NCBI RefSeq assembly: GCF_007830435.1 | Contig: NZ_VLLC01000001.1 | Location: 1-59,904, forward strand | Length of the DNA: 59,904 nucleotides | Origin: Desulfobotulus alkaliphilus | GTDB lineage: Bacteria; Desulfobacterota; Desulfobacteria; Desulfobacterales; ASO4-4 | Direction: 5' to 3' | Part shown: one piece after another, positions 18,947-35,201 of the stretch | Position numbering within the stretch: the stretch's first letter is position 1 | Layout of the letters: each line of letters starts with the position of its first letter | Notes under the pieces: model-generated | Told to the model about the DNA's origin: nothing | The model's input: only the letters and a program-made list of their open reading frames with translations | Databases searched by the model: none | Program-made: the position numbers and the translations under genes

Positions 18947-21106
18947 CTAAAGGGGCTGCTGCTCCTTCAAGGCTTTGACGGCACCTGCAATTCCGATGAC
19001 CACCAGACGGTCTCCGCCCAGAAGATGCTCTTCGGGCTGAATGGTAGTTATCCTCTGCCCTCTCCGCAGAATACCCAGCAGGGTAACGCCATACTTCTGC
19101 CTGAAACGGATCTCGCCGGGAGATTTTCCGGAAAGAGCCGAATTCTCGGCAACCAGCACCTCAGCAATTTCAAAATGATCAATGCCTTCGGAACCTTTTT
19201 GCTTTTCAAGCTGATTGAGTACCCTGCCCGCATCCTTAAGACCGGCCGGTGGCCCCACAATGAGCAGCCGGTCTCCCGGAAAAATCCTGAAATCGGGACC
19301 GGGATCATAGTGAACACTGCCTCCCCGGCTTACGGCCAGAATGGAAACCCCGGTTAAGGCCCTTAGGGGGATATTCTTGATCCTCTGCCCTGCTGCCGTG
19401 GCATCGGACTGAATCCGCACTTCAAGAAAGGAAACGGGCCAGTCAATATTTTCCGGAAGAAAGTCCATGGCATAGGTCAGGGCATCCGCAGCCTGCTCCG
19501 TTGCGTCCATATACGGGCGGAAAACCAGATGCGCTCCGGCCTTTTCAAAATCCATAGCTTCGTCCGCATCGGTAGCTGTCAGGGCCAGCTTCCCCCCATA
19601 TCCTGCACCTGCCAGATTCTGCGCCAGAGTCAGGTTCATTTCCCTTGACCGGACCGTACTGATCACCCACCGGGTTTTATGCAGGGGCAGATGTTCATGG
19701 ATATCCGGGTCCGCCATATCCCCATAAAGCACAGAAACTCCGCGATCCCGCCATCTGTCCAGGGCTGCGGGATCAAAGTCCACGCCCAGCACCGTTTTTT
19801 CCCTCCTCAGAAGATAATCCGCAAGACCACTGCCGTAATTGCCAAGCCCCACAAGAATCACATCCAGATCTTCCGTACGATTTTCCGTATCCGCAGCGGC
19901 TTCTCTGTAGGGTATGGATCTTTCAAATATTCTCAGGGATTCAGACAGAAAATTATAAAGCTGGCTGGAATAAAGGATCATGTAAGTGGATAAAAATATG
20001 GTTATAACCCCCACAAGGGTTATCAATCCTACGGTTTCATTGGTAATATGGCCAATGCTCAGGCCAAGGGCCGCCACAATCAGAGAAAACTCGCTGATCT
20101 GCGCCACGGTGAGACCCGCCAGAAGCCCCGTACGCCGCCGATATCCCATAAAACCCATGATCATCAAAACAATCAAAGGATTACCTATAAGAACAAAGAT
20201 GGAAAAAACAATGGCAGGCCCAATCTGTGATCCTACTGTGGACCAGTCCAGGCGCGCACCCAGATCAATGAAAAAGAACAGAAGCAAAAAGTCCCTCAGA
20301 CTGGTAAGCCTGGCTCCGATGGAATCCCTGTATTCCGTGGGCGCCAGCGAAATACCGGCCAGAAATGCCCCCACCTCTTTACTGAATCCGAGAATTTCGC
20401 TGGCCGCTCCCAGAAAAACCGCCCATGCAATGGCAAAAAGGGTAAGCATCTCAAGGGAATAGGCAAGGCGTTTCACAAGACCCGGAAGAATGAACTTCAT
20501 GACAAGGGCCACACAGCCCAACAGACCAAACCCCTTGATAAAAATCACAAGGGTGGAAATCCATAGATTATCCCCATCGCTGCCTGCCGAAGAACCAAAG
20601 GTTGTCAGGACAACGAGAGCCAGTATGGCGGCGATATCCTGAATAATCAGAAAACCAATAGCTATCTGACCGTGGAGGGAATCAATTTCCTTTTTATCGG
20701 AAAGAAGCTTGACAATGATGATGGTGCTGGAAAAGGTAAGGGCCACAGCCACATAGGCTGCATGGAGCCAGTTCATCCCCATGGCCATGGCAATGATAAA
20801 ACCCACAAGGGATGTAAAGACAATCTGCCCCAGACCCGTTGCCAGAGCCACAGGCCCGGTTGTGCGTATCAGGTGCAGATCCAGCTTCAGGCCAACAATA
20901 AAAAGCAGAAGTGCAATGCCGATTTCTGCAAGAAGGTCAATCTGCTCATAGCTGTGTATGATGCCCAGCATGGACGGGCCAGCAATAATACCCGTTGCCA
21001 GAAACATGATGATCAAGGGCTGGCGCAGCTTCTGACCAATGATGCCAATGACTGTGGCAAGACTCAGAATGGCTGCAATTTCTACAAAGGCACTTCCCTG
21101 AAACAT
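18947..21106 (-). CDS. Monovalent cation:proton antiporter with RCK domains (KefB/YbaL-like)
   Basis: 719 residues. Twelve or so hydrophobic segments (about 5-395) form a CPA2-type exchanger core (for example IALLLFIVGLKLDL and GAFLAGISLAPTEY). A cytosolic RCK_N/TrkA-N domain follows (about 415-535; VILVGLGNYGSGLADYLL with the dinucleotide-binding glycines), then two TrkA-C domains (about 550-640 and 655-715). Such proteins exchange K+ or Na+ for protons and are gated by nucleotide ligands. A single gene, with a short tandem repeat and hisF downstream of its promoter side. Confidence 0.88.
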   Translation of the reverse strand: MFQGSAFVEIAAILSLATVIGIIGQKLRQPLIIMFLATGIIAGPSMLGIIHSYEQIDLLAEIGIALLLFIVGLKLDLHLIRTTGPVALATGLGQIVFTSLVGFIIAMAMGMNWLHAAYVAVALTFSSTIIIVKLLSDKKEIDSLHGQIAIGFLIIQDIAAILALVVLTTFGSSAGSDGDNLWISTLVIFIKGFGLLGCVALVMKFILPGLVKRLAYSLEMLTLFAIAWAVFLGAASEILGFSKEVGAFLAGISLAPTEYRDSIGARLTSLRDFLLLFFFIDLGARLDWSTVGSQIGPAIVFSIFVLIGNPLIVLMIMGFMGYRRRTGLLAGLTVAQISEFSLIVAALGLSIGHITNETVGLITLVGVITIFLSTYMILYSSQLYNFLSESLRIFERSIPYREAAADTENRTEDLDVILVGLGNYGSGLADYLLRREKTVLGVDFDPAALDRWRDRGVSVLYGDMADPDIHEHLPLHKTRWVISTVRSREMNLTLAQNLAGAGYGGKLALTATDADEAMDFEKAGAHLVFRPYMDATEQAADALTYAMDFLPENIDWPVSFLEVRIQSDATAAGQRIKNIPLRALTGVSILAVSRGGSVHYDPGPDFRIFPGDRLLIVGPPAGLKDAGRVLNQLEKQKGSEGIDHFEIAEVLVAENSALSGKSPGEIRFRQKYGVTLLGILRRGQRITTIQPEEHLLGGDRLVVIGIAGAVKALKEQQPL

Positions 21107-21140
21107 GATTGATCTTTTCCTTTATCCATGGGGCATCATA

Positions 21141-21188
21141 CATTAAAACAGCTCATAAAACCTGCATTAAAACAGCTCATAAAACCTG
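21141..21188. repeat. 24-bp tandem repeat, two exact copies
   Basis: CATTAAAACAGCTCATAAAACCTG occurs twice head to tail between the antiporter start and the hisF stop. It has no palindromic character. It may be a simple duplication; a role as binding site for a regulator of the antiporter is possible but not shown. Confidence 0.85.
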
Positions 21189-21199
21189 AAAGCCCCTGT

Positions 21200-21949
21200 T
21201 CAAACCAGATCCTTCAGGTAATTTTTGACATCTGCAATCTGAATCTCACCAAAATGAAAGACAGAAGCCGCAAGCAGAATGGTAGCCCCCGCTTCCACGG
21301 CCTCACGGAAATGTTCCAGCTTTCCTGCACCGCCTGAAGCAACAATTTCCGCAGAAACAGCCCCTTTCATGGCACGGATTACCGGCAGGTCATACCCTGT
21401 CTTTGCCCCGTCTCCGGCCTTGCTGGTGGGAAGAATCACAGGCACACCATAAGCGTCCACCCGCTTTGCCCATTCCACCGCATCCGTACCCGTGGCGGTA
21501 CGGCCCCCATTGATATACACCTCATAACCCGAAGGCATGGAAGGATTCTTATCCACGTCAATGGCAACGGTCAGCCTTTGGGCACCAATGGCCCGGATCA
21601 GATCCGGAATCAGGTCCGGATTCTTAAAGGCTGCACTGCTGACGGAAATTCTGTCTGCTCCGGCCTTCATTACGGCCTCTGCGGAAGCAGCATCCGTTAT
21701 TCCCCCTCCCACGGTAAAGGGAACGGTGGTGACGGCGGCAACACGGCTGACCACATCCAGCATGGTTTCCCTGCCTTCCACCGTGGCTGTGATATCCAGA
21801 AGTGCCAGCTCATCGGCACCGTTTTCGCAATAAGCTCTGGCGCAGGCTACGGGATCTCCCGCATCTTTGATATCCACAAAATGAACACCCTTCACCACAC
21901 GGCCATTCTGCATGTCCAGACAGGGCATGATACGAATTTTCTGCGTCAT
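21200..21949 (-). CDS. hisF: Imidazole glycerol phosphate synthase subunit HisF
   Basis: 249 residues from MTQKIRIMPCLDMQNGRVVKG, with GGGAG about 10 bp upstream. Catalytic acids are present: Asp in PCLDM and Asp in VAIDVD. HisF is the cyclase half of the synthase that makes imidazole glycerol phosphate and AICAR from PRFAR using ammonia from HisH. Other visible motifs are TVGGGITD, GGRTATGTDAVEWAKRV and SGGAGKLEHF. The usual LTSMDRDGTKxGYD loop reads LPTSKAGDGAKTGYD here. No other his gene is adjacent. The gene follows the hybrid kinase by 62 bp on the same strand. Confidence 0.93.
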   Translation of the reverse strand: MTQKIRIMPCLDMQNGRVVKGVHFVDIKDAGDPVACARAYCENGADELALLDITATVEGRETMLDVVSRVAAVTTVPFTVGGGITDAASAEAVMKAGADRISVSSAAFKNPDLIPDLIRAIGAQRLTVAIDVDKNPSMPSGYEVYINGGRTATGTDAVEWAKRVDAYGVPVILPTSKAGDGAKTGYDLPVIRAMKGAVSAEIVASGGAGKLEHFREAVEAGATILLAASVFHFGEIQIADVKNYLKDLV

Positions 21950-22011
21950 TCTTATTTTTCTCCCATAGTATTGAATAAGATTCATTTTCGCAACTTCTGC
22001 TGTAAAAACAT

Positions 22012-24126
22012 TCATGAATCGAGGGCTTTCCGGACACTGGCGGCCATTTCTTTCATGGAAAAAGGCTTCTGTATAAAGTGAACCCCCTCATCCAGCACAC
22101 CATTTTCTGCAATATAATTGGCCGTATAACCGGACATAAACATGCACTTCATACCGGGGTAGCGGGAGCGCAGTTCAGAAGCAAGATCCCAGCCATTCAT
22201 CTCCGGCATCACCACATCCGTCAGCAGAAGATCTATTCCTGAGTGGTGCTCCGCCGCAAGGCGCAGGGCCTCAGCGGGCAAACCCGCCTCCAGTACCTTA
22301 TACCCCTGACGCTCAAGCATAATCCTTGCCATTTTCAGCAAAGCAGGTTCATCTTCCACCAGAAGTATGGTTTCGCCATTTCTGTTTTCTTCCCTCATTT
22401 TCCGGCCTGCCGGTACATCTTCTTCATCGGGGTGACGGGGAAGATAAATGCGGAAAGAGGTTCCATCGCCGGGTTCACTGTAAACATGGATAAAGCCCTT
22501 ATTCTGTTTTACGATACCATACACCATGGCAAGCCCGAGGCCGCAGCCCTTTGCCACATCTTTGGTTGTGAAAAAAGGTTCAAACAGATGTAAAAGCATC
22601 TCCTGTTCCATGCCACAGCCATCGTCACTGACCGCCAGCATCACGTAATCGCCGGGAATGAAATCCGCATGCCTTGTACGGACATCCTCATCAAACAGCA
22701 CGCAAGCCGTCTCGATGATCACCCTGCCCGCACCTGTGATGGCATCCCTTGCATTGGTACACAGGTGCACCAGAATCTGGTCGAGCTGGGAAGGATCCAC
22801 CTTTACCCTTGCGGGTTTTTCAGCAGGACACCATGAAAGCCTGATGTTTTCTCCCATCAGCCGCTGAAGCATGTGAAACATGTCCGCCACAAAGGCGTTC
22901 ATGTCCACAACCCTGGGGGATGCGGGCTGCCTTCGGGCAAAGGCCAGAAGCTGTTTTGTGATATCCGCCGAGCGGCCGGCAGCCTTATGGATACTCTGCA
23001 GATGCGAATACAGGGTATCCGATGGCCCAAGCTGATCCATGGCAAGCTCCGCATGACCGATGATCAGCCCCAGCATATTGTTGTAATCATGGGCCACTCC
23101 CCCTGCCATCCGTCCGATGGATTCCATCCTTTTGGACTGATGCAGTTGCTCCTGCAGGGTTTCCCGTTCTTTCTGCGCCTGCACCTGTGCCGAAATATCC
23201 CGGATAATCCCAAAAAATCCCAAAAGCTCCCCGTCCGGCTTACGAAGGGAGGCCACCCGTGTTTCCGAAGGAAAAATTTCCCCATTTTTTCTCAAATGAT
23301 TCAATTCTTTTACAAAGTGAAGTTTTTCCCCGTTTTCTTCCATCATCTGGCCCACATGAAGAAAATCCTCTTCATTTTCATAAAGGAATCTCGACTTTCT
23401 GCCCCTGATTTCCTCCGTGGAGTATCCGAAAAGCCTTGTGAAAGCCCCGTTTGCATCTATGATTGTACGGCTGGCATCCACCACAACAATGGCATCCTGT
23501 ATGCACTCAAAAAGACCATGATATCTGGCCTCACTTTCCTGAAGCTTCGTCAGCACCCTTTCCTGCTCAAAGAGTGCATTGGAAAAACGTATGCCGGAGA
23601 AACTTAAAGAAGCAATCATCTCCGCAAGCCTGACACAAAACCCCATGGCCCCGTGGATGGCTTCCTTTTTCCAGCGGGGAACCCGCCCAATGGCTTCAAG
23701 ATATGCCTTTTCATCAAAACCGTACTTGCGGGCCTGCTCCCGGAAAAAATAAGGGTCCACCACATCCTCTTCATAGAAAAACTGACCCAGATAAAGATTT
23801 CCAAGATGCCTGCCTTCCACCTCTATGGGTGTAACCATATCCCAGAGATGATTTTTACACCTGTAGGCCTTAAAACTGCCCGAGGAGACATTTCCAGCCA
23901 GAAACAGATCGCTTTCCTGACAGTTTTTCAGGGTTTCAGGATGCACCCTGTGGAATTTCCTGCAAACATCCTGCCACCCGAAGGAAAGAAGGATTTTGCC
24001 TGATATATCAAGAATGGCACCCCCGATGCCCGTCACCCGGTGAAATTCATCCATCATGGACTGAAGGGTCTGCTGATCACAAAGAACATCACTGAGGGTC
24101 AGGGTATCCATATCTTTTTTATCCAT
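22012..24126 (-). CDS. Hybrid histidine kinase with PocR sensor, PAS and receiver domains
   Basis: 704 residues from the ATG at 24126 (a TTG nine codons upstream also opens the frame). Order: PocR-type ligand domain about 10-185 (with FHRVHPETLKNCQESD and the Cys pair around SSGSFKAYRCKNHLWD), PAS about 200-310 (DAIVVVDASRTIIDANGAF), HisKA with phospho-acceptor His346 in GGVAHDYNNM, HATPase (NARDAI; DDGCGM; KGCGLGLAMV), and a C-terminal receiver about 583-704 with phospho-acceptor Asp in LLLTDVVMPEMNG. No membrane segment, so it senses an internal small ligand; PocR domains bind small hydrocarbons or diols. No output gene is adjacent. Confidence 0.9.
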   Translation of the reverse strand: MDKKDMDTLTLSDVLCDQQTLQSMMDEFHRVTGIGGAILDISGKILLSFGWQDVCRKFHRVHPETLKNCQESDLFLAGNVSSGSFKAYRCKNHLWDMVTPIEVEGRHLGNLYLGQFFYEEDVVDPYFFREQARKYGFDEKAYLEAIGRVPRWKKEAIHGAMGFCVRLAEMIASLSFSGIRFSNALFEQERVLTKLQESEARYHGLFECIQDAIVVVDASRTIIDANGAFTRLFGYSTEEIRGRKSRFLYENEEDFLHVGQMMEENGEKLHFVKELNHLRKNGEIFPSETRVASLRKPDGELLGFFGIIRDISAQVQAQKERETLQEQLHQSKRMESIGRMAGGVAHDYNNMLGLIIGHAELAMDQLGPSDTLYSHLQSIHKAAGRSADITKQLLAFARRQPASPRVVDMNAFVADMFHMLQRLMGENIRLSWCPAEKPARVKVDPSQLDQILVHLCTNARDAITGAGRVIIETACVLFDEDVRTRHADFIPGDYVMLAVSDDGCGMEQEMLLHLFEPFFTTKDVAKGCGLGLAMVYGIVKQNKGFIHVYSEPGDGTSFRIYLPRHPDEEDVPAGRKMREENRNGETILLVEDEPALLKMARIMLERQGYKVLEAGLPAEALRLAAEHHSGIDLLLTDVVMPEMNGWDLASELRSRYPGMKCMFMSGYTANYIAENGVLDEGVHFIQKPFSMKEMAASVRKALDS

Positions 24127-24393
24127 GGCATTTTCCAGATTGCGTGGCCTCAAATCAGGGCCGGATTCAATTTTGAATGGTCAGTAAAATACCCATATGA
24201 GGTATCACAGGGTCATACCACTGGCAACAGTCTGCTTTTAAAAAAGGCTTTCCTTGCCAAAAAAAGCGTCTGGGGCTATAAAAAGCCACCAGCGATCAGG
24301 GGTTCTGGCACAGATGATCTGGAAAAAGCCTGAATACAGAACCCATCCATGTCCAACTTCCGGCCCTGTCCGGGTACCCTGTTGAGGTTTTCC

Positions 24394-25434
24394 TTGCATT
24401 ACTCCTGCGTTGACATAAAAGCCATTGCCTATGAGCTGCCTTCCCATGTGCTGACTTCCGAAGATATTGAGGAACGTCTTGCCCCCCTCTACCAAAAACT
24501 CCACATCCGGCCGGGTCAACTGGAAGCCCTTACCGGGGTAAAGGAACGCAGGCAGTGGGAAAGGGGGATGCCCCTTTCAGAAGGTGCCATTGCCGCAGGC
24601 AGGAAAGCGCTGGATCTTGCTGCCATGAAACCGGAAGACATAGATATGCTCATTTACGGAGCCGTATGCCGGGAAAATCTGGAACCTGCCACGGCCTGCG
24701 CCGTTGCCTGCGGCCTCGGCCTGCCGGACCATGCCCATCTCTTTGACCTTTCCAACGCCTGCCTTGGTATGATGAATGGTCTTCTCCTCATCGCCGATGC
24801 CATTGAATCAGGCCGCATCCGAAGGGGCATGGTGGTGGCCTGTGAATCCTCAAGACAGATCATGGACATCACCATGGATGCCATGCTGGCCCAACCCACC
24901 ATGGCATCCTTCACAAAAGGCCTTGCCACCCTCACCGGAGGCTCCGGCGCAGCAGCCATTGTCCTTGGCAGAAAGGACGAGGGGAACCGGGGCCATGCCC
25001 TGCTGGGCAGCGTTTTAAAAAATAAACATGCCTGCCATGATCTCTGCGTCTGGGGGCCAGACACGGGCATACCCGCATCCGCTCCCATGGCAATGCGAAC
25101 CGATGCTGCAGCCGTGCTTCGCCACGGGGTTGAGCTGGGCAGGGAAACCTTCCAGCTTTTTCTTGAAGAGACGGGCATGGGGGAAAAGGATCTGGATCGC
25201 ATCATCTGTCATCAGGTGGGAGCCGCCCACAGGGAAACCATCCTTTCTGCCATGGGCATTCCCATGGAAAAGGATTATGCCACCTTCCCTTTTCTGGGGA
25301 ACATGGGCACCGTTTCCCTGCCCATCACCGCCGCCGCAGCCTTTGAACAGGGATTCCTTCAGCCCGGTCACAGGGTGGGCTTTTTCGGCATTGGCTCCGG
25401 ACTCAACTGCCTGCTGCTGGGTCTGGACTGGTAA
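24394..25434 (+). CDS. oleA: OleA-like thiolase (3-oxoacyl-ACP synthase III family)
   Basis: Thiolase-fold protein, 346 residues from a TTG at 24394 with GAGG upstream; an ATG at 24349 would add 15 residues but has no ribosome site. The N-terminal IAYELPSHVLTSEDIEERLAPLY is typical of OleA rather than FabH. The catalytic triad is visible: Cys in LSNACLGMMNG, His in ICHQVGAAHRE and Asn in GNMGTVSLP. OleA condenses two fatty acyl-CoAs head to head into a beta-ketoacid. OleB and OleC homologues lie at 31870 and 33543, beyond the curli genes. A plain FabH role is the alternative. Confidence 0.8.
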   Translation: MHYSCVDIKAIAYELPSHVLTSEDIEERLAPLYQKLHIRPGQLEALTGVKERRQWERGMPLSEGAIAAGRKALDLAAMKPEDIDMLIYGAVCRENLEPATACAVACGLGLPDHAHLFDLSNACLGMMNGLLLIADAIESGRIRRGMVVACESSRQIMDITMDAMLAQPTMASFTKGLATLTGGSGAAAIVLGRKDEGNRGHALLGSVLKNKHACHDLCVWGPDTGIPASAPMAMRTDAAAVLRHGVELGRETFQLFLEETGMGEKDLDRIICHQVGAAHRETILSAMGIPMEKDYATFPFLGNMGTVSLPITAAAAFEQGFLQPGHRVGFFGIGSGLNCLLLGLDW

Positions 25435-25634
25435 TCCTTGTCAATCAAAAGAATGAGAACCCTTCATACCTTCCCCGCCAAAAACACCCCAAAGAACTAG
25501 TACTTTCATTCATCCATTTTTACAAAAAATCCATCCTTCAGCGGATTGCGTTCAATGCTTAAATCCCATAGTGTTCATCTAACATTAAAGAAAATAGCAA
25601 TACATGAACATAATCCCAAAAGGATGGACTCTCC

Positions 25635-26150
25635 ATGCTGAAAAACAGACAAACCGGAAAACCGGGCTGGAAACTCCTTACGGTTTTTTTAATGCTGGCA
25701 TGTTTCTGCGCCCATGCAGGCCATACGGATATCCCACATTCTGCCCCAGAAATAGAAATGGAAAAAGCAGAAATTCCATACACAGAAAATCTGGGCACAC
25801 AGGATGAGGCCATGGAAGCCCTTATTTTAGAATATACATCCATTCGCGACAGAAGACCGGAAAACAGCTTTTACCTCGACATGGGTGCTGCCCATTCCGC
25901 CTCCCACATCGTAACCATTCAGGAGGGAATGGAAAACACCATCCTTGCCCGGCAGACCGGCACCGGCATCCTGTATGTTCACCAGTATGGAAACAGCAAT
26001 TATGCAGAAATCCTTCACGAAAGCGGTATTCATATGGTGCATCAGCTTGGAGACAGCAATTATCTCCAGTGGCATCAATCCGGTAATACCAACATGAGAA
26101 TCACCCAGACAGACGGTGCCCGAGCCATAATAAGGAATGATGCGGATTGA
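25635..26150 (+). CDS. csgB: CsgB-like minor curlin
   Basis: 171 residues with a Sec signal peptide (ending CAHAGH). After a non-repetitive region (about 30-80) the C-terminal half shows imperfect curlin repeats with Q, N and G at regular spacing (TIQEGMENTILARQTGTG, YVHQYGNSNYAEILHESG, MVHQLGDSNYLQWHQSG, TNMRITQTDG). CsgB nucleates CsgA polymerisation at the cell surface. It precedes the large curlin by 122 bp. Assignment as the nucleator is from position and its short repeat block. The AT-rich 200 bp upstream presumably carries the promoter, but I see no clear box. Confidence 0.7.
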   Translation: MLKNRQTGKPGWKLLTVFLMLACFCAHAGHTDIPHSAPEIEMEKAEIPYTENLGTQDEAMEALILEYTSIRDRRPENSFYLDMGAAHSASHIVTIQEGMENTILARQTGTGILYVHQYGNSNYAEILHESGIHMVHQLGDSNYLQWHQSGNTNMRITQTDGARAIIRNDAD

Positions 26151-26272
26151 TGACAAGACACATGGAAGACCCAGCGATTTTCCAAAAGAAAATCCTAAGA
26201 AACCATAAAAACAAAGCTTTAGACAAGAGATATTAAAAAAAAAACACCCAAACCCAAAAAGGAAGAAAACGA

Positions 26273-28081
26273 ATGAAAAAAAAATTTGCCATCCTCGTCA
26301 TCAGTGCTGCCATGACCATGGCCACCTACGGAACAGTTATGGCCGGGGACGAAAATGTCCAGATCACACAAACCGGGGACAAGCACATTTCTGATGTTAC
26401 CCAAACAGGCCTGAATACAGGAATAATTAATCAAGAAGGCATTGCCAATGAAACAGAGCTGACCCAGGATGGAAATGGAAATATTGCCACTATTCGTCAG
26501 GTACAGACAGGGGAAAATTCTACAATCAGAACAGGAATGCTTACCGGCGCAGTACACGCAACATTAACTCCAGCAAATGGGAACACAGCCAGTGCCACCC
26601 AAAGAGGTGAAAATAACAGGATTGACACTAAACAGACCGGGAGTGCAAACACTGCGGCCATAAATCAAGAGGGTAAAAACAATAGTGTAACAACCCTACA
26701 AACCCAGACAGGTTATACGGAAGAGAGCACAACCTCAGGCTTGATCAGAACAACAACCAAAAACACAAAGCCCGGCAATGAAATAGAAACCGGCCAGACT
26801 GGCAAGGATAACGAAATCACTGCCACACAGGTCGGCAGCAAAAACATAGCAACAATCACCCAAGATGGGGACAACAATGCTGCTGAATTGATCCAGGATG
26901 GTGACAACAATACTTTCACCTCTCTTCAGGATGGTAATAACAACCTTATCAAAGCGACCCAAAACAATATAAACAACACCGCCAAAATCACCCAAGAGGG
27001 AAACAGTAATACCGCTGAATTGGGCCAGGATGGTGAAAAAAATACGTTCACCTCTCTTCAGGATGGTAATGCCAACATTATCAAAGCCGCCCAAAAAAAT
27101 ATAAACAACACCGCCGATATCACCCAAGAGGGAAACAGAAATACCGCTGAATTGGGCCAGGATGGTGAAAAAAATACGTTCACCTCTCTTCAGGATGGTA
27201 ATGCCAACATTATCAAAGCCGCCCAAAAAAATATAAACAACACCGCCGATATCACCCAAGAGGGAAACAGAAATACCGCTGAATTGGTTCAGTCCGGAAA
27301 CAATAACAAATTCACTTCCACTCAGACAGGCATCAGCAACGAGATAGATGCCACACAATCAGGCCACAGTAACAAAGCAACAATCATACAGACCGTGGAA
27401 GGCCTCTTCAATGGCCGCAATACTGCGACCCTGCTTCAGTCCGGAGATGAAAACGAATTCACTTCCACACAGACAGGTGTTTTTAACATCATAAATGCTG
27501 AACAATCAGGCTCCAATAACATGGCAAGACTCACGCAGACCGAGGGATTCCTCAATGCCGGCAATACTGCGACCCTGCTTCAGTCCGGAAATGACAACAC
27601 CTTTACTTCCACACAGACAGGCATCAGCAACAAGATAGATGCCACGCAATCAGGCAACAGTAACAAAGCAACAATCACCCAGACCGTGGAAGGCCTCTTC
27701 AATGTCGGCAATACTGCGACCCTGCTTCAGTCCGGCAATAACCACACAGCGGATATTAACCAGAACGGCTTCAATAACAGTGTCAATCTTCAGCAGGATG
27801 CAGACGGCGGTGAAGCGAAAATTACTCAAACGGGATCACGCAACAAGGTCACAGGAATCAACACTGATGCTGCCCTTGCCAACGGTACTCTTGATGTCTT
27901 CCAAAATGGCGAAGCCAACATCCTGAACCTGAATCAGGATAACGCCAATGCAGGTGCCTGGATTGTTTCTAAGGGCAATGCCAACTTCGTCAACCTTACC
28001 CAGCTTGGCAACCTTGCCCACACCGCCAGTATCAACCAGATCGGAAACAGCAATACAGCAACGGTTGTTCAGCAGCAGTAA
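26273..28081 (+). CDS. csgA: Giant CsgA-like curlin
   Basis: 602 residues, about four times E. coli CsgA (151). A signal peptide (ending VMAGD) is followed by a near-continuous array of curlin repeats of about 22 residues with the pattern Q-x-G-x-x-N-x-A-x-I/L-x-Q (for example ITQTGDKHISDVTQTG). Two higher-order classes are seen: a 44-residue unit repeated three times at about 213-344 (two copies identical in DNA), and a 48-49 residue unit (NTATLLQSGNDNTFTSTQTG...) repeated four times after it. The product is a secreted amyloid fibre subunit exported through CsgG. A GGAAG ribosome site precedes the ATG. Confidence 0.88.
   Translation: MKKKFAILVISAAMTMATYGTVMAGDENVQITQTGDKHISDVTQTGLNTGIINQEGIANETELTQDGNGNIATIRQVQTGENSTIRTGMLTGAVHATLTPANGNTASATQRGENNRIDTKQTGSANTAAINQEGKNNSVTTLQTQTGYTEESTTSGLIRTTTKNTKPGNEIETGQTGKDNEITATQVGSKNIATITQDGDNNAAELIQDGDNNTFTSLQDGNNNLIKATQNNINNTAKITQEGNSNTAELGQDGEKNTFTSLQDGNANIIKAAQKNINNTADITQEGNRNTAELGQDGEKNTFTSLQDGNANIIKAAQKNINNTADITQEGNRNTAELVQSGNNNKFTSTQTGISNEIDATQSGHSNKATIIQTVEGLFNGRNTATLLQSGDENEFTSTQTGVFNIINAEQSGSNNMARLTQTEGFLNAGNTATLLQSGNDNTFTSTQTGISNKIDATQSGNSNKATITQTVEGLFNVGNTATLLQSGNNHTADINQNGFNNSVNLQQDADGGEAKITQTGSRNKVTGINTDAALANGTLDVFQNGEANILNLNQDNANAGAWIVSKGNANFVNLTQLGNLAHTASINQIGNSNTATVVQQQ
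26909..27304 (+). repeat. 132-bp tandem repeats inside the curlin gene
   Basis: Three head-to-tail units of 132 bp (44 codons). The second (27041-27172) and third (27173-27304) are identical for nearly the whole unit, diverging only at the distal end; the first is an older, diverged copy. Frame is preserved. This indicates recent in-frame expansion, so fibre-subunit length may vary between strains. It could also be collapsed or expanded by short-read assembly. Confidence 0.85.
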
Positions 28082-28082
28082 A

Positions 28083-28148
28083 AAGGATAAGAACTTCCTT
28101 ATCCTTCATGCAGCAAAGGTCCCGGCAGACAGGCTCCCTGCCGGGACC
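28083..28148 (+). terminator. Double hairpin after the curlin gene
   Basis: Two stems in series: AAGGATAAG/CTTATCCTT at 28083-28106 and the strong GGTCCCGGCAG/CTGCCGGGACC at 28118-28148, followed by ACTTTATT. This would stop or attenuate transcription between the abundant subunit genes and the secretion genes. Confidence 0.75.
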
Positions 28149-28211
28149 ACTTTATTCATGGCAGATTTTTATCAACCTTCGGCGTAAATTGGAAAAATAA
28201 TATTTTTCAGC

Positions 28212-28240
28212 TTGAATTCATCGACTAAAAAAAATATATA
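28212..28240 (+). promoter_or_regulatory. Sigma-70-type promoter for the curli secretion operon
   Basis: TTGAAT and TATATA are separated by 17 bp, 71 bp upstream of the csgE start, just after the double hairpin that closes the curlin transcript. It would give csgEFGH and the csgD-like gene their own transcript. Confidence 0.6.
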
Positions 28241-28310
28241 AAGTGCATTCACTTTTTTGGGCTGAGGCCAAAGCACCCCTTAACGCCCGACCCATAAGAA
28301 AGCCGCAACC

Positions 28311-28730
28311 ATGTTTCCCATGGGATTAACCAATAAAATAAAGATCTTTTGCGCGATCAGCCTTTTCATTTTCTGGTTTATACCCTGCGCCTCCCCACAG
28401 GATGTGGAGCTGGATAATCTCATCATCCAGAAAACCATGACGCCAAGGGGACATGAGTTTTACCGCCTGTTCTCTTCCCGTTGGAACCAGAGCCTGGGAA
28501 CGGATCTGGGATGGCTCCTTGTGCAGGAAAGGGCCAGCGCCAGATGGGGTTCACAAATTTTTATCCATATCAATGACAGACCCATTTACAGGCTTCAGCT
28601 CAGCCCGAGGAATCAGGCACTGACAGAAGATGCAGATAAAGCTGTGCAGGCTGTACAGATGATTCTTTTGCGTATGCAGATGGAAGAAAGCTCCGGGAAC
28701 TCGCCAGATCTTGTGGGAAATGGTTACTGA
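28311..28730 (+). CDS. csgE: Curli secretion chaperone CsgE
   Basis: 139 residues. A signal peptide (about 9-30) leads to a mature domain with the CsgE pattern LDNLIIQKTMTPRGHEFYRLFSSRW, followed by the WGSQIFIHINDRPIYRLQLSPR strand pair and the helix EDADKAVQAVQMI. CsgE caps the CsgG pore in the periplasm and directs curlin to it. An ATG three codons in is an alternative start; neither has a strong ribosome site. The stop codon lies in the first unit of a 22-bp tandem repeat. First gene of the csgEFGH-csgD set. Confidence 0.85.
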   Translation: MFPMGLTNKIKIFCAISLFIFWFIPCASPQDVELDNLIIQKTMTPRGHEFYRLFSSRWNQSLGTDLGWLLVQERASARWGSQIFIHINDRPIYRLQLSPRNQALTEDADKAVQAVQMILLRMQMEESSGNSPDLVGNGY

Positions 28731-28782
28731 CCCTGATAAAAATGGCTACTGACCCTGATAAAAATGGCTACTGACCCTGATA
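28721..28782 (+). repeat. 22-bp tandem repeat spanning the csgE stop codon
   Basis: The unit TGGTTACTGACCCTGATAAAAA occurs two and a half to three times (28721, 28743, 28765), with a single T/C difference in the later copies. Each copy carries the TGA that ends csgE. The repeats fill most of the gap before csgF. Confidence 0.85.
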
Positions 28783-28798
28783 TATCAAAGGATTTACA

Positions 28799-29242
28799 AT
28801 GATTAAAAAACGACATTTTTCAATCTTTTCCCTTTTATTTCTTTTTGCAGGAAGCAGTCTTGCAACGGAACTGGTTTATACCCCCATAAGCCCCTCCTTT
28901 GGAGGAAACCCCATGAACGCAACTTTTCTTTTGACCATGGCAGAAAAACAAAATGACACCAAAGCACCCCCGACACCACGCAGAGATCCTCTGGAAGACT
29001 TTGAGGCGAACCTAAACCGTATGGTTCTCAATCAGTTAAGCCGTAAAATCGTCAACATGGCCTTTGGCGGATACAATGATGATCTTGCCGGTGGAACCTA
29101 TCACTTCGGACAATACGAAATTGACATCACCATCATGGAAGGCCAGAGCATCGGCGTCAGTATCATCGACAGTCTCACGGGAGGGACCACCAAAGTTGAG
29201 GTACCCTATTACGGAGATATGCAGAATCCGGGAGACTGGTAG
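28799..29242 (+). CDS. csgF: Curli assembly factor CsgF
   Basis: 147 residues. The signal peptide ends at SLATE; the mature start ELVYTPISPSFGGNPMNATFLLTMAEKQ is the near-invariant CsgF N-terminus that inserts into the CsgG pore constriction. The C-terminal half has FGGYNDDLAGGTYHFGQYEIDI and a SIGVSIIDSLTGGTTKVEVP beta domain, as in the family. CsgF links secretion to nucleation at the cell surface. It precedes csgG by 4 bp. Confidence 0.93.
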   Translation: MIKKRHFSIFSLLFLFAGSSLATELVYTPISPSFGGNPMNATFLLTMAEKQNDTKAPPTPRRDPLEDFEANLNRMVLNQLSRKIVNMAFGGYNDDLAGGTYHFGQYEIDITIMEGQSIGVSIIDSLTGGTTKVEVPYYGDMQNPGDW

Positions 29243-29246
29243 CTCG

Positions 29247-30173
29247 ATGGAACATACAATCAAAATGTCACCCATAATTTTCATCAGAATTATTTCAGTA
29301 TGCATACTTCTACTGCTGCTGCAGGGCTGTGGCATAAAGGGCCCTAAAACAAGTCCCATGAGCCTTGCCACACTGGGATATGAAACACCTTCCGGAAAAA
29401 TACTCAGGCAACTTCCAGAACCCAAGGGGAAAATTACCGTCGCCGTCTATAATTTCAGGGATCAGACAGGACAATACAAGCATCATCCCACCACATCGTC
29501 CTTTTCAACTGCTGTCACGCAGGGGGCCACCACCATGATGGTGGAATCCCTTCTGGCATCAGGCTGGTTCGTTCCGGTGGAAAGGGAAGGCCTCAACGAC
29601 CTCCTGACCGAAAGAAAAATCATCCGGGCCAACATCGCCAATCCGGGAAGTGGCAATGACATTCCCAACCTCCTCCATGCACCGCTGATTCTTGAAGGCG
29701 GAATTGTGGCCTATGAAACCAATGTTTCCACAGGAGGAATGGGGGCCAAATACTTTGGAGTCGGTGGTTCAACCCAGTACAGAAAAGATCAGGTAACCCT
29801 TTACCTCAGGGCAGTGGATGTAATGCAGGGAAAAATTCTCCATTCCGTGTCCACATCCAAATCCATCCTTTCCATGGAAGTCATGGCTGGTATTTTCCGT
29901 TATGTGGATTACAGAAAACTCCTGGAAGCTGAAGCTGGGTATACCACCAATGAACCGCCCCAGCTGTGCGTACTGGAAGCCATTGAAAAAGCTTTGCTGG
30001 CCATGATTGTAGATGGAATTATTTCAGGATTGTGGGAGCTTAAAAATTATGAAGATATTAATAACCCCATTATATATAATTACCTGAGAGAAAAATATGG
30101 CAGAAAAGAAGCACGCGCCACTATTGCCCGTTACAAACAACGGTACATCATAAAAATGGATGTTAAGGGATGA
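29247..30173 (+). CDS. csgG: Curli outer-membrane secretion pore CsgG
   Basis: 308 residues from the ATG at 29247, four bases after csgF; a longer frame would run antisense-like through csgF. A lipoprotein signal ends in LQGC (Cys28). The CsgG core follows: GKITVAVYNFRDQTGQYK, the strand FSTAVTQGATTMMVESLLASGWFVPVERE, the pore strands around GIVAYETNVSTGGMGAKYFGVGGSTQYRKDQVTLYLRAVD, and a C-terminal helix region. CsgG forms a nonameric beta-barrel in the outer membrane. Its stop overlaps the next gene's ATG by 4 bp. Confidence 0.95.
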   Translation: MEHTIKMSPIIFIRIISVCILLLLLQGCGIKGPKTSPMSLATLGYETPSGKILRQLPEPKGKITVAVYNFRDQTGQYKHHPTTSSFSTAVTQGATTMMVESLLASGWFVPVEREGLNDLLTERKIIRANIANPGSGNDIPNLLHAPLILEGGIVAYETNVSTGGMGAKYFGVGGSTQYRKDQVTLYLRAVDVMQGKILHSVSTSKSILSMEVMAGIFRYVDYRKLLEAEAGYTTNEPPQLCVLEAIEKALLAMIVDGIISGLWELKNYEDINNPIIYNYLREKYGRKEARATIARYKQRYIIKMDVKG

Positions 30174-30544
30174 AAATGGAACTGATGATTTTAAGCCTGA
30201 GCCTTGTCATTATCTGCACCATGAACGCATGGGCATTTCGTAAGGATGAAATCCAAAGCAAGGCAACAATCCATATGGAGTCTACGCATAACGGCATTTC
30301 TGTATCTGCAAAAGCCATGGTACAGGAAACCGGAATTTATGAATACATCCTCACTTCCTCAAAAAAGGGGAACACTGGCAATGTTCAAAGTTCTCAAAAA
30401 GGGAAAAAACATATTTTTAAAAATGAAGAAACGGTGCTGACAACCATCCAGCTCTCCTGTGCTGAAGAAGATTACTGGAGCTTTCGGCTTATCATCATGC
30501 AAAACGACATCATTATGGCAGACATCACCCGAAGCAACAGGTAA
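30170..30544 (+). CDS. csgH: CsgH/CsgC-like curli inhibitor
   Basis: 124 residues with a signal peptide (ending NAWA). The mature part is an all-beta, Ig-like domain: ATIHMESTHNGISVSAKAM, YEYILTSSKKGNTGNVQSSQKGKK, EETVLTTIQLSCAEEDYWSFRL. The NTGNVQSSQ stretch is characteristic of CsgH, the alphaproteobacterial-type counterpart of CsgC, which prevents premature amyloid formation in the periplasm. It overlaps csgG by 4 bp (ATGA), which supports co-translation. I base the assignment on the strand pattern and position. Confidence 0.75.
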   Translation: MKMELMILSLSLVIICTMNAWAFRKDEIQSKATIHMESTHNGISVSAKAMVQETGIYEYILTSSKKGNTGNVQSSQKGKKHIFKNEETVLTTIQLSCAEEDYWSFRLIIMQNDIIMADITRSNR

Positions 30545-30606
30545 TTTTACATTCCATTGCCGTCTGCACTGATCAAAAAACAAAGAATCAAATACAGAGG
30601 TATTCC

Positions 30607-31311
30607 ATGTTTCTTGCGGAAATGGACAAAACAAGTGCTTCCGTTTCAACCAAAGTCTCTCAGATAATAGCAGTTATTATAAGTCCGCTGGAACTTCAAA
30701 GTGAACTTATCAGTGAAAAAATCCTACAGGTCATGGGTCATGCAACCCTTATTATTTCGAAACCTTCATCTAAAAAAATCCGCCCATATCTGGATCATAC
30801 ACTGGTCTTTCTGATAGATTGCCATCGCATGGATTTTCAGGAAATTATGCTCCATCTCGCCTCCACCAATGAGGCTATCAGTGAATTTTACCCCACAAAA
30901 TACTGGGCTTCATTCAATCTTCGCACCGATCTGCAGGGATTTATTGAAAAGGAACTGATGCAGGCAGGATGTAAGGGAGTTTTTTTTGAAAAGGATGGTA
31001 TCGAATATTTCATCAAAGGAATTCAGGATATTTTGAAAGGTAACCTCTGGTTCTCCCGCCAGGCCATGAATGATGCCCTCACCACAACAAGATTACCGAC
31101 TCCAGTTTTTGAAGAAAAGCGTATTACAAAACGAGAAAAAGACATACTGATTCGCCTCATAGCCGGAGAGTCCAATCAGAAGATTGCAGAAGGTATGGGG
31201 ATCAGTATTCACACCGTAAAAAGCCACCTCCACAGTGTTTATAAAAAAATTGGTGTTACAAGCCGAATTAAGGCTGCAAACTGGGGTGCTAAAAATTTTT
31301 CTTTGCTTTAA
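30607..31311 (+). CDS. csgD: LuxR-type regulator, CsgD-like
   Basis: 234 residues. An N-terminal receiver-like region (about 18-140) lacks an obvious phosphorylation triad, and a C-terminal LuxR helix-turn-helix (about 170-230) reads ITKREKDILIRLIAGESNQKIAEGMGISIHTVKSHLHSVYKKIGV. This is the CsgD/VpsT architecture. The start has GAGG 7 bp upstream. CsgD activates curlin expression; here it is the last gene of the secretion operon rather than divergent from it. DNA here is visibly AT-rich compared with the flanking genes. Confidence 0.85.
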   Translation: MFLAEMDKTSASVSTKVSQIIAVIISPLELQSELISEKILQVMGHATLIISKPSSKKIRPYLDHTLVFLIDCHRMDFQEIMLHLASTNEAISEFYPTKYWASFNLRTDLQGFIEKELMQAGCKGVFFEKDGIEYFIKGIQDILKGNLWFSRQAMNDALTTTRLPTPVFEEKRITKREKDILIRLIAGESNQKIAEGMGISIHTVKSHLHSVYKKIGVTSRIKAANWGAKNFSLL

Positions 31312-31320
31312 AAGAAACAT

Positions 31321-31842
31321 CCTTAGTATTTAAAATATATATTCAATTAAAAAACTTAGAACAAAATTTTTATCCATCACTGCTCGAAACAAATTTGAAC
31401 CCAGTAACAAGTTGTTCCCCGACAGAACGACGCAACAGTGCGCAGAGTTGCTTCTGAGAAAAACTACGTGCTGCTTTATTATTCCATCCTTTAGGCTTTC
31501 ATTGCTCTTTATTAAGATAGCTCATGCATAAAATATCTTTCACACCTACCTTCTGATTCCCGTCGAAATCCAACCCGTTTTCCAAACGCATCTCCTCTGA
31601 GTATAAAAAATGCAAAAATATGCCACAGATCTTTTTTTAACATAGTGTGGTAAGAACTGCCTTGAAAGATATTATTATTGGCTGTACTTTCTCCTTTGAA
31701 CAGTGGCTTTTTGATTCCAGGCCATTATTCTTTATGTGTCGGCTTCTTTATCTGCCTATTAATTTTCATTCCATGAAAAAACAACTGAATCCATGACCAG
31801 TCAGCCATAAACCAATTAAAATACATCCGAAACAGCTCTCCG
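31321..31842 (-). pseudogene. Non-coding gap with possible coding remnants
   Basis: The 531 bp between csgD and oleB has no intact gene. On the minus strand, short in-frame pieces read like eroded protein: one of about 35 residues (IFAFFILRGDAFGKRVGFRR) near 31520-31620 and one of about 40 (KGWNNKAARSFSQKQLCALL) near 31370-31490, separated by stops and in different frames. I cannot name a family. The sequence is AT-rich. This may be a decayed gene or a chance pattern. Confidence 0.25.
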
Positions 31843-31869
31843 ATGGGACGGATACTTATAAGGATCTCA

Positions 31870-32763
31870 ATGCCCCGGCCAAACGAAAAACTACCTTTTC
31901 CTTTCCCCTTTCAGTCAAAATATATTCAAATCAACAACCATGCCATGCATTATATTGATGAGGGTAAAGGCTCCCTTGTCCTCTGTATCCACGGCAACCC
32001 CACCTGGAGCTTTTACTTCAGAAATGTCATAAATTCCCTGTCACCGAATTTTCGTGTGCTGGCTCCGGATCACATGGGCATGGGCCTTTCCGCAAAACCC
32101 CAAGCTGACCCATACCCCCACACCCTCATGCAGCGGGTTATGGACATGGAAGCCTTCCTTGATGCCGTGGCACCGAAAGAGCCCTTTCATCTGATCGTCC
32201 ATGACTGGGGTGGAATGATCGGCACCCTTCTGGCCCTGCGCCAGCCGGAACGGATTTTAAGTGTTGTCATTACCAACACCGCAGGCTTTTTAAAGCCAGC
32301 CCATAAAAAACTGCCCCTGCGTATCCGCCTTGCAAGGGATATTCTTCCGGTGGCCGCTCCTGCCATTTTAGGACTCAATCTTTTCTCCAGAGGCGCTCTT
32401 TTCTTCTGTGCAAAGAAAAGGCTTTCCCCGGCCATCCGCAAAGGGTATCTTTTTCCCTATGGCAGCCCTGCAAAAAGAAAGGCCCAGCTTGCATTTGTCA
32501 GGGATATTCCCCTTGGCCCGGATGATCCGGCCTATGATGCCGTGAACTGGGCGGAAAACAATCTTCACAGACTTAAGGATATCCCGAAATGTATTCTGTG
32601 GGGAGAAAAGGATTTTGTTTTTGATACGGATTACAGAGACCTCTGGAAAAAGCATTTTCCCGATACCCCCTGCCACAGTTTCCCCGAAGCGGGCCATTAC
32701 CTTTTTGAAGACGAAACAAAAGCCTGCATGGAAATCATTCAGCGTTTTCTCAAATCCGGATAA
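31870..32763 (+). CDS. oleB: OleB-like alpha/beta hydrolase (haloalkane dehalogenase fold)
   Basis: 297 residues from the ATG at 31870 with AAGGA upstream; an ATG nine codons earlier lacks a site. Motifs: oxyanion-hole region CIHGNPTWSFYFRN, nucleophile Asp in HLIVHDWGGMIG, and the catalytic His in FPEAGHYLFEDE. The protein has the haloalkane-dehalogenase-like sequence typical of OleB, a beta-lactone decarboxylase that releases the olefin and CO2. Its neighbours oleC (33543) and oleA (24394) support that role over dehalogenation. It lies 74 bp before the Pro-rich protein gene. Confidence 0.82.
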   Translation: MPRPNEKLPFPFPFQSKYIQINNHAMHYIDEGKGSLVLCIHGNPTWSFYFRNVINSLSPNFRVLAPDHMGMGLSAKPQADPYPHTLMQRVMDMEAFLDAVAPKEPFHLIVHDWGGMIGTLLALRQPERILSVVITNTAGFLKPAHKKLPLRIRLARDILPVAAPAILGLNLFSRGALFFCAKKRLSPAIRKGYLFPYGSPAKRKAQLAFVRDIPLGPDDPAYDAVNWAENNLHRLKDIPKCILWGEKDFVFDTDYRDLWKKHFPDTPCHSFPEAGHYLFEDETKACMEIIQRFLKSG

Positions 32764-32837
32764 GACTCCATGGCAGGCATGCTTTACTGGCAAGCCGCCG
32801 CTACTCATAAGCTGTTAAACATAAAGAGGTGTCCTCC

Positions 32838-33497
32838 TTGGAAAAAAAACAGGCCGAAAGAAAAACATCCCCTAAAAAAAAAGGAAAAAAAAGCGAGCCT
32901 GAACCACCGCCGCCGCCACCTCCACCCAAAAAATCCCGGAAAAAAATTTTTCTGATGGTATTTATGGCAGGCGTCCTTGCCATTGGCGGTGCCTTTGCCC
33001 TTCTCTACCTGCTTGGCGGCGAAAAGGAAGAAAAACCGGCTGTGTACCCTGCCCTTGCACTTCCCCATATCCCCATGGACGATGAGCTTCTGGCCTTCAC
33101 CTGGCAGCATATTCCCCAGAGCTACGAAGCCCTGACTGGACTGAATGCTGAAATCTCTGTCATCACAGAAGAAATGGAACGCATTGAATCCATTGCCGCC
33201 CGCTTTCCAGAACAAAGGCGCATCACCCAGACGGAAATCCGGGAATGGGAAAGCCTGAAGAGGGAGCTTGAAACAGGACTGTCAAGGTCTGCGACTGCCC
33301 TTCAGGCCCTGCATGTGACCTTGCTCGTCAATCCTGAAAGGGGAAAAACCGCCATAGCCTCGGAAGCCGGAGCCATCACATCCGGCCTTCAGGCCATGCA
33401 TGAAGGATCGCGGGAAAAAACCCTGCGCCTGAATCCGGACCCCCTCCGGCGGCCCCCCTCATTCTTTGAAAAAATCACCCAATGGCTGCCCTGGTAA
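32838..33497 (+). CDS. Pro-rich single-pass membrane protein between oleB and oleC
   Basis: About 219 residues. A basic, Lys-rich N-terminus is followed by a run of eight prolines (about residues 22-31), a transmembrane segment (about 38-58: MVFMAGVLAIGGAFALLYLLGG) and an extracytoplasmic helical domain (about 75-200) with Ser/Glu/Arg-rich helices. A TTG at 32838 fits the GAGG ribosome site best; a GTG three codons earlier overlaps that site. It sits between oleB and oleC on the same strand. No family is recognised. The oligoproline after a basic patch suggests EF-P-dependent translation. Confidence 0.6.
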   Translation: MEKKQAERKTSPKKKGKKSEPEPPPPPPPPKKSRKKIFLMVFMAGVLAIGGAFALLYLLGGEKEEKPAVYPALALPHIPMDDELLAFTWQHIPQSYEALTGLNAEISVITEEMERIESIAARFPEQRRITQTEIREWESLKRELETGLSRSATALQALHVTLLVNPERGKTAIASEAGAITSGLQAMHEGSREKTLRLNPDPLRRPPSFFEKITQWLPW

Positions 33498-33542
33498 ACT
33501 ACCTGAGGCCTTTTTTCACCAACCTTTTCCCAAGGTGCCACC

Positions 33543-35201
33543 ATGGAAAATGCCAATATCGCCTGTCTTCTCACAAAAAATGCAGCAAAAAGCCCGAACA
33601 GACGGGCCGTTGTCATGCCCGCAGGCAAAGATGCCATGGGACGCTTAAAAACCACCCAGCTTTCCTTTGCCCAGCTTGATGCCTCCAGCACAAAGGTTGC
33701 TGCGGGTTTTTCTGCCATGGGCATGTCTCCGGGCACACGGACGGTACTCATGGTTCCACCGGGGATGGATTTTTTCATCCTCACCTTTGCCCTGTTCAAG
33801 GCCGGTCTCATTCCCGTGGTGGTGGACCCCGGCATGGGAGTCAAACGCATGGCAGACTGCCTGGCCTCCACCCGTGCCGAAGCTCTGGTGGGCATACCCA
33901 AGGCCCATCTGTTCCGTAAGCTCTTTCCCAGGGCCTTTGCCCATGTCCGGCATACGGTCAGCACCCGTCCCCTGCCCCTTTTACGCACAAAAACCTTAAA
34001 AGAGCTGCTTTCAAGCGATGCCACGGGTTTTGAAACCCTTTCCTGTGAACCTGAAACCACCGCAGCCATTCTCTTTACCACGGGCAGTACGGGTCCGGCC
34101 AAGGGTGTCATTTATACACATGCCAATTTCCATGCCCAGATTCAGGCCATCCAGAATCATTTTGACATCAAAGAAGACGACAGGGATCTTCCCACCTTCC
34201 CCCTTTTTGCCCTCTTTGATCCGGCCTTAGGCATGACAGCCTTTATTCCGGAAATGGACCCCACAAAACCGGGCAAGGCAGACCCCCGCCCCATCCTTGA
34301 AGCCATTGACCAGCATGCCATCACCACCATGTTCTGCTCACCGGCCCTTCTGGACCGCCTTGGCCGCTATGGCAGCCGGGAAGGTATCCGCCTGCCGGGC
34401 CTCAGGCGGGTGGTATCCGCAGGGGCTCCGGTACGGCCGGATATTCTCCAGTCCTTTGTGCCGGTAATCGGCAACCCAAAGCGCATCCATACTCCCTACG
34501 GGGCCACGGAAGCCGTCCCCCTCATGAGCCTGACTGCGGGTGAAATCCTCTCGGAAACCCGTTCCTTTACGGATCAGGGCATGGGCATCTGTGTGGGACG
34601 CCCCCTGAAAGGCGTGGACATATCCATCATCCGTATCACGGATGCCCCCATCGCAAGCATGGAAGACGCCGAAGAGCTGCCCGAAGGAGAAATAGGAGAA
34701 ATCATCGCAAAGGGCCCCATGGTGACATCTGCCTATTATGAAAACCCAGAAGCAGACAGGTTGTCAAAAATAAAGGATCAAAAAGGCTTCTGGCACCGCA
34801 TGGGGGATCTTGCATGGAAGGACAATTCAGGCAGGTTCTGGTTCTGTGGCCGCAAATCCCACAGGGTATGCACGGAAGAAGGGGAACTCTACACCCTGCC
34901 CTGTGAGGCCATTTTCAATACCCACAAAAAAATACGACGCAGTGCCCTGGTGGGCATCGGCCCGGAAAAATCGCAGACACCTGTTATTATCATTGAACCC
35001 ACGGATAAAATCAGCAGGGAAGAGAAATCAGAGCTTCAAAGCGAACTGCTGCAGCTTGCAGGTGCCTTTGACCACACATCGGGCATCCGCCACCTTCTCT
35101 TCCACAGGGATTTTCCCGTGGATATCCGCCACAACGCCAAAATCCACAGGGAATCTCTGGCTGCATGGGCTGAAAAAAAACTGACAGGAAAGACGATGTG
35201 A
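33543..35201 (+). CDS. oleC: OleC-like beta-lactone synthetase (acyl-AMP ligase fold)
   Basis: 552 residues with the ANL-superfamily motifs: ILFTTGSTGPAKGV (P-loop-like), TPYGATEAVP, GDLAWKDNSGRFWFCGRKSHRV, and the C-terminal domain. The N-terminus (NIACLLTKNAAKSPNRRAVV) and the motif VVVDPGMGVKRMADCLA are characteristic of OleC, which activates the beta-hydroxyacid with ATP and closes a beta-lactone. OleC usually works with OleA, OleB and OleD in long-chain olefin biosynthesis. Only oleD, the NADPH-dependent ketoacid reductase, is missing from this window. The gene is convergent with folE2 (78 bp). Confidence 0.85.
   Translation: MENANIACLLTKNAAKSPNRRAVVMPAGKDAMGRLKTTQLSFAQLDASSTKVAAGFSAMGMSPGTRTVLMVPPGMDFFILTFALFKAGLIPVVVDPGMGVKRMADCLASTRAEALVGIPKAHLFRKLFPRAFAHVRHTVSTRPLPLLRTKTLKELLSSDATGFETLSCEPETTAAILFTTGSTGPAKGVIYTHANFHAQIQAIQNHFDIKEDDRDLPTFPLFALFDPALGMTAFIPEMDPTKPGKADPRPILEAIDQHAITTMFCSPALLDRLGRYGSREGIRLPGLRRVVSAGAPVRPDILQSFVPVIGNPKRIHTPYGATEAVPLMSLTAGEILSETRSFTDQGMGICVGRPLKGVDISIIRITDAPIASMEDAEELPEGEIGEIIAKGPMVTSAYYENPEADRLSKIKDQKGFWHRMGDLAWKDNSGRFWFCGRKSHRVCTEEGELYTLPCEAIFNTHKKIRRSALVGIGPEKSQTPVIIIEPTDKISREEKSELQSELLQLAGAFDHTSGIRHLLFHRDFPVDIRHNAKIHRESLAAWAEKKLTGKTM

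Follow-up and report, generated by a model that had tools for sequence, protein, structure and literature searches.

In this work we have analyzed 59,904 nucleotides of the Desulfobotulus alkaliphilus genome (genome G000; positions 1 to 59,904 of the 358-kb contig C2, NZ_VLLC01000001.1; this whole stretch is called the window), in which genes for olefin biosynthesis (ole) and for curli (csg) are found together about 25 kb inward from the contig end. Our comparisons make it very probable that a complete operon for curli (csgBAEFGH and, after them, a csgD-like gene) was gained horizontally and entered, between oleA and oleB, a formerly continuous cluster of oleA, oleB, a gene for a protein of 222 amino acids (aa) and oleC, most simply after the split from the sister species. 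This is supported by the empty site in the sister species, the near-absence of curli in the sampled genomes of the order and the foreign composition of the inserted DNA. All the genes concerned are on the + strand: oleA (24394..25434, 346 aa, TTG start), oleB (31870..32763, 297 aa), the 222-aa gene (32829..33497) and oleC (33543..35201, 552 aa). The 6435 bp between the oleA stop codon, which ends at 25434, and the start of oleB (25435..31869, the island) are filled by seven csg genes; the better oleB start is the ATG at 31870, with AAGGA just upstream. A previous analysis of the same DNA made without database searches (the sequence-only reading) had already placed oleA, oleB and oleC on the same strand with about 6.4 kb of seven csg genes between oleA and oleB, and both the list of open reading frames and the family scans agree with it. 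The 222-aa gene between oleB and oleC has to be added to that reading.

That reading had also proposed the insertion of a curli island into an ole cluster, and an uninterrupted cluster is in fact present in the two further genomes of the genus. The sister species (G001) has the order oleA-oleB-222aa-oleC and G002 has oleA-oleB-222aa-oleC-oleD, both without any csg match. The left flank of the island (19878 to 25434) aligns with G001 at 88.6% DNA identity over 5569 columns and the right flank (31900 to 35183) at 86.7% over 3327 columns. The left-hand similarity ends exactly at the last base of the oleA stop codon and the right-hand similarity resumes just inside oleB. The aligned ends are ∼150 bp apart in G001 (147 bp by blastn ends, 154 bp by tblastn ends), versus 6465 bp in the window, and the island DNA has no match in the ole loci of G001 and G002. 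Judging from these alignments, the original oleA-oleB spacer and the first oleB codons have been replaced, or have diverged past recognition. With the insert in place, oleB and oleC are cut off from oleA, so that their expression now requires either a promoter within or close to the 558-bp csgD-oleB spacer or transcription running on from csg.

The inserted genes include a curlin-repeat subunit and a secretion channel with its two accessory proteins. The csgA-like gene (26273..28081, 602 aa) scores 218 bits with PF07012, with 14 curlin-repeat stretches in the protein and DNA repeats spaced 132 bp. The Pfam models of csgE (28311..28730; PF10627, 86.7 bits, cut-off 25), csgF (28799..29242; PF10614, 109 bits, cut-off 25.8) and csgG, the outer-membrane secretion channel (29247..30173; PF03783, 248 bits, cut-off 20.8; lipobox-like QGCG), are all above their cut-offs; the E. 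coli-type NCBIfam models for the three proteins score below theirs, and CsgG-named structures match CsgG at 261 bits. The gene for the curli chaperone CsgH (30170..30544) is recognized by NF041112 (37.1 bits, cut-off 35), with PF10610 (CsgC) at 16.5 bits, below its cut-off of 25, and a PDB sequence search with CsgH found no CsgC or CsgH chain and nothing related. The names of csgB, csgD, oleB and oleD are partly given by position, their scores being below curated cut-offs. The csgB-like gene (25635..26150, 171 aa, minor curlin) has weak repeats and is named by position (PF07012 17.1 bits, cut-off 20.7; NF007506 21.3 bits, cut-off 165), and the csgD-like gene (30607..31311) encodes a LuxR-type regulator (PF00196 57.5 bits; NF007505 80.8 bits, cut-off 250). 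As judged from these families, CsgG, CsgE and CsgF would secrete the repeat protein CsgA and anchor it as amyloid fibres, CsgH would restrain its early aggregation and the CsgD-like protein would regulate the system. A 22-bp unit is repeated three times in tandem at 28718-28783, from the end of csgE into the csgE-csgF spacer.

The closest curli relative sampled is found in another order of the same phylum (G316, the sole genome sampled from its order; locus L128), with which the window pairs both in a 19-row tree of CsgG (support 99/97) and in a joined tree of CsgG, CsgF and CsgE (support 100/100), to which Azospirillum and Rhizobium contribute no CsgE sequence. The G316 locus has the same order as the window, curlins followed by csgE-csgF-csgG-csgH, with identities of 64% for CsgG, 53% for CsgF, 35% for CsgE and 34% for the CsgD-like protein. 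Unlike the window, it has csgD upstream and more curlin-like stretches. The island DNA and the other loci compared are only 63-75% identical, in short pieces. Curli loci were also found in the plasmid collection, with CsgG identities of at most 57.9% among the 40 records listed, and virus contigs gave no CsgG match. One of the plasmid loci (L121), on a mobilizable plasmid of Aeromonas hydrophila, carries a LuxR-type gene, csgE, csgF, csgG, a curlin and csgH with transposase genes on both sides, and a plasmid of this kind is a conceivable type of vehicle for curli transfer.

Among 291 genomes of the order, OleC is found in 195 (E ≤ 1e-80) and OleA in 197 (E ≤ 1e-50), whereas the window CsgG used as query matched only in G000 itself (E ≤ 1e-15; weaker relatives may exist). 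Across the phylum, 10 of 395 genomes, G000 among them, have a CsgE match. We have also compared 48 other ole loci (20 from the order, 26 from a collection of genome contigs, and those of G001 and G002), dropping OleC matches below 150 bits and overlapping weaker matches, and tblastn with the window csg proteins as queries (E ≤ 1e-4) detected csg genes in none of the 48; several of these loci are short, and the spacer was directly tested in the 25 that show both oleA and oleB. In a subset of 23 loci (L027 and L083-L104) oleA is seen in 19, in all of which it adjoins oleB, and oleD follows oleC in 14. Furthermore, the distance between oleA and oleC was compared in 113 genomes, leaving out 22 with the genes on different contigs and one with them on opposite strands (in G115 they are on opposite strands of one contig, ∼6 kb apart). 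Both genes share contig and strand in 90 genomes; in G000 the distance is 8111 bp, and in the other 89 it ranges from 927 to 3147 bp. The same interleaved order in distant lineages, which according to the sequence-only reading would speak against an insertion, was sought and seen nowhere else among the loci examined, and conserved interleaving of csg and ole genes is rejected on the surveys of ole loci, CsgG and gaps. As to the host group, one report gives oleC of Desulfobacteraceae and related bacteria its highest abundance in anoxic lake water (PMC10176705).

Could the arrangement instead be a selected functional grouping, with curli and membrane olefins acting as surface traits that are required jointly, and with oleB and oleC co-expressed through the CsgD-like regulator or through transcription continuing from the csg genes? 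All the genes point in one direction, a scan at chance level lists no + strand terminator-like site between csgD and oleB, and the ole genes look intact and constrained. The dN/dS values (ratios of nonsynonymous to synonymous substitutions) between G000 and G001 are 0.147 for OleA, 0.207 for OleB, 0.159 for the 222-aa protein and 0.104 for OleC. The unique changes in G000 and G001, with G002 as outgroup, are 7:5, 12:9, 6:7 and 13:15, respectively; as these are near equal, there seems to be no marked speeding-up in the ole genes after the insertion. However, the arrangement is found in a single genome, OleC is widespread in an order in which CsgG is found only in G000, no ole match is present in the 14 kb around the curli operon of G316, and promoter-like and terminator-like sites are no commoner than in shuffled sequences. 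All these data make selection for the grouping unlikely. A related idea is that the insertion has given rise to a new unit of joint regulation, in which oleB, the 222-aa gene and oleC are driven by the csgD-like regulator or by csg read-through while oleA and oleD are controlled apart. Read-through into oleB is possible, as no + strand terminator-like site is listed in between, and the joint unit as a whole is unlikely; if it were true, surface amyloid and membrane hydrocarbon would be produced together in this species.

The insertion is also reflected in the composition of the island, which had been described as more AT-rich than its flanks, mainly from csgE onward. The first part of this description holds, as its content of guanine plus cytosine (GC) is 0.439, lower than in any of 406 other overlapping stretches of 6435 bp of the window (0.488-0.540). 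The second does not, as the whole island is AT-rich (GC 0.461 in csgB-csgA, 0.464 in csgE-csgG, 0.404 in csgH-csgD and 0.36 in the last spacer). Codon use, whose comparison had been suggested together with that of GC, points in the same direction. Synonymous codon use was scored for 28 window genes, with the 21 non-csg genes pooled as reference. The six lowest scores all belong to csg genes, of which there are seven; csgG, the sixth-lowest, is tied at three decimals with the native psd.

A foreign composition in a draft genome of 95 contigs would also be expected if curli DNA of another organism had been misjoined into the contig during assembly. This is very improbable, as the island edges coincide with gene borders and lie 25 kb into a contig of 358 kb, oleB retains an in-frame start with a ribosome-binding site, and the contamination estimate is 0.67%. 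Furthermore, the spacer to the right of csgD holds a copy of a dispersed repeat (31342..31461, + strand, up to ∼120 bp) that recurs at no fewer than 17 further sites of G000 (of 47 candidates, 40 were scored) and at two of G001 with 70-84% identity, and was not found in G002. Its presence elsewhere in G000 speaks for this DNA being native to the genome and against a chimeric join. Even less probable is an ancestral interleaved order with later loss of the curli genes from the relatives: a loss can never be excluded from absence alone, but it would require many independent clean losses, given that csg genes are absent from the 25 other loci with oleA and oleB both seen and that CsgG is lacking at E ≤ 1e-15 in 290 of the 291 genomes of the order, and the composition is foreign. 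Finally, the idea that the protein taken for OleA is simply a FabH, which would leave no ole cluster, is hardly credible and is ruled out by the scores, since, although both belong to the same thiolase superfamily and NF006720 is itself titled 3-oxoacyl-acyl carrier protein synthase III, the protein reaches 445 bits with this model (cut-off 285) versus 95-121 bits with the fabH models and 180 bits with its best PDB chains (3row/3s21) versus 87 bits with the next other synthase, and oleA adjoins oleB wherever it is seen in the 23 loci mentioned above. A grouping with FabH, which the sequence-only reading had named as a refuting result, was thus sought and not found.

Several observations weigh against the insertion as we propose it. 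The codon use of csgE is within the native range, there is no integrase or transposase among the island genes in the open reading frame list and family scans, the window has no transfer RNA, and the island edges show no clear flanking repeat, only short weak ones. The closest CsgG proteins are only 59-64% identical, which places the donor outside the genomes compared, and the CsgF tree alone gives no resolution. Moreover, one genome per species was compared, the join rests on an assembled contig of a draft genome, and CsgG relatives weaker than 1e-15 may exist in the order.

Regarding the other Ole proteins, we take 3row/3s21 to be Xanthomonas OleA and NF006720 to stand for OleA, the acyl-CoA (coenzyme A) condensing thiolase. 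OleC, the presumed beta-lactone synthetase, matches NF006754 at 711 bits (cut-off 478) and the olefin beta-lactone synthetase models NF045785 and NF045786 at 589 and 582 bits (cut-offs 850 and 900); in the PDB it matches only CoA ligases (best 89 bits), and its closest named relative, from an uncultured Desulfobacteraceae bacterium, is 57% identical. OleB, the presumed beta-lactone decarboxylase, is named by synteny: it groups with haloalkane-dehalogenase-like alpha/beta hydrolases (PF00561 98 bits; best NCBIfam model 162 bits, cut-off 241), also in the PDB, and has an HDWGG motif. Motifs regarded as belonging to the active sites are present in OleA, OleB, OleC and OleD. From these families, OleA would condense two acyl-CoAs, OleD would reduce the ketone, OleC would make the beta-lactone and OleB would remove CO2 to yield a long-chain olefin.

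The sequence-only reading had noted that oleD is absent. This is true of the window, but an OleD homologue is encoded elsewhere, on contig C9 (C9:29921-30916), and on this basis a loss of oleD is rejected. It is the best 3-beta-hydroxysteroid dehydrogenase-like protein of the genome (C9:29939-30658) and is matched best, near full length, by two OleD models at 321 and 305 bits (cut-off 580; next model 120). At this locus DNA similarity to both congeners starts 9 bases ahead of the oleD start, matches shorter than 150 columns having been dropped. The orthologue starts ∼620 bp after oleC in G002 and is on the contig and strand of oleC, 33.9 kb downstream, in G001. As oleD is thus near oleC in G002, 33.9 kb off in G001 and on another contig in G000, the oleC-oleD split is an event separate from the curli insertion. 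The ∼34 kb between oleC and oleD in G001 (contig C11, 74.1-108.0 kb; L119, L083) hold large genes, and those read by eye, in ∼97.0-107.6 kb and 74-83 kb of C11, resemble P-loop GTPases of the dynamin type, a WD40-repeat protein, an Hsp70-like protein and a HerA-type ATPase. A dispersed imperfect palindrome of ∼255-270 bp, which folds as one long hairpin and matches no Rfam family, abuts oleD in G001 (L119 11166-11418) and has one copy in the window at 9905-10175. At least 40 copies are present in G000 (all 40 scored of 278 candidates are strong), with many also in G001 and some in G002; the raw totals of 58, 58 and 35 for the three genomes are inflated by re-matches of the same copies on the opposite strand. 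An Rfam scan of the window and three further loci found no family.

The protein encoded between oleB and oleC, as far as its sequence indicates, belongs to an undescribed membrane-type family that precedes oleC in part of the order. Nine members, the window protein included, align with nine invariant positions, and their profile matches in 60 of the 291 genomes of the order (E ≤ 1e-4). Strong matches (E ≤ 2.6e-14) are found in 47 genomes; in 20 of them the gene precedes oleC by 8-75 bp (9 of these supplied rows of the profile and 11 did not), in 10 it is away from oleC and in 17 there was no OleC position for comparison. The loci with the gene before oleC include L083, L084, L087, L090, L093, L098, L102 and L104. 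The 13 weaker genomes match only the N-terminal part of the profile, which is likely due to chance. No consistent Pfam family was found, with scattered weak matches in single members and none for the window protein; FliL models match two of the nine members (best 4.7e-6). The predicted structure is all-helical (mean predicted local distance difference test score 78, predicted template modelling score 0.59), its N-terminal helix resembles a membrane span as judged by eye, and a fold search against the PDB gave no convincing match (best E 0.27). As a guess, the Ole enzymes may have a membrane partner in this protein; that the gene also occurs away from oleC argues against a role confined to that setting.

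We regard the insertion as real and clean, ordinary in kind and unusual in place and host. It is an unusually clean natural experiment, in which a pathway cluster received a whole amyloid-secretion operon while the sister species kept the empty site, and it shows that ole genes need not visibly decay when their cluster is broken in two places. A single literature search for curli, olefin, gene cluster and insertion together, the only one made for this combination, found no paper. A survey of curli systems assigns horizontal transfer only a minor part in how curli have spread (PMC3521004), to which this locus is a counter-case. The survey counts one curli system in Deltaproteobacteria, describes Delta- and Betaproteobacteria without csgC and csgD, and places csgH in Alphaproteobacteria (PMC3521004).

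When compared to known systems, the window has, like the oleABCD clusters described in PMC7064751, oleA, oleB and oleC in the usual order and an OleD homologue in the genome. These clusters contain 0 to 3 intermediate genes (PMC7064751), while the window has seven genes between oleA and oleB and one before oleC, and oleD is on another contig. The curli operons of Alteromonas and Pseudoalteromonas, as presented in PMC3521004, resemble the window in that csgBAEFG form one run, followed downstream by csgD. Compared with them, the csgD-like gene is co-directional in the window, csgH is found between csgG and csgD, and the operon is located within an ole cluster.

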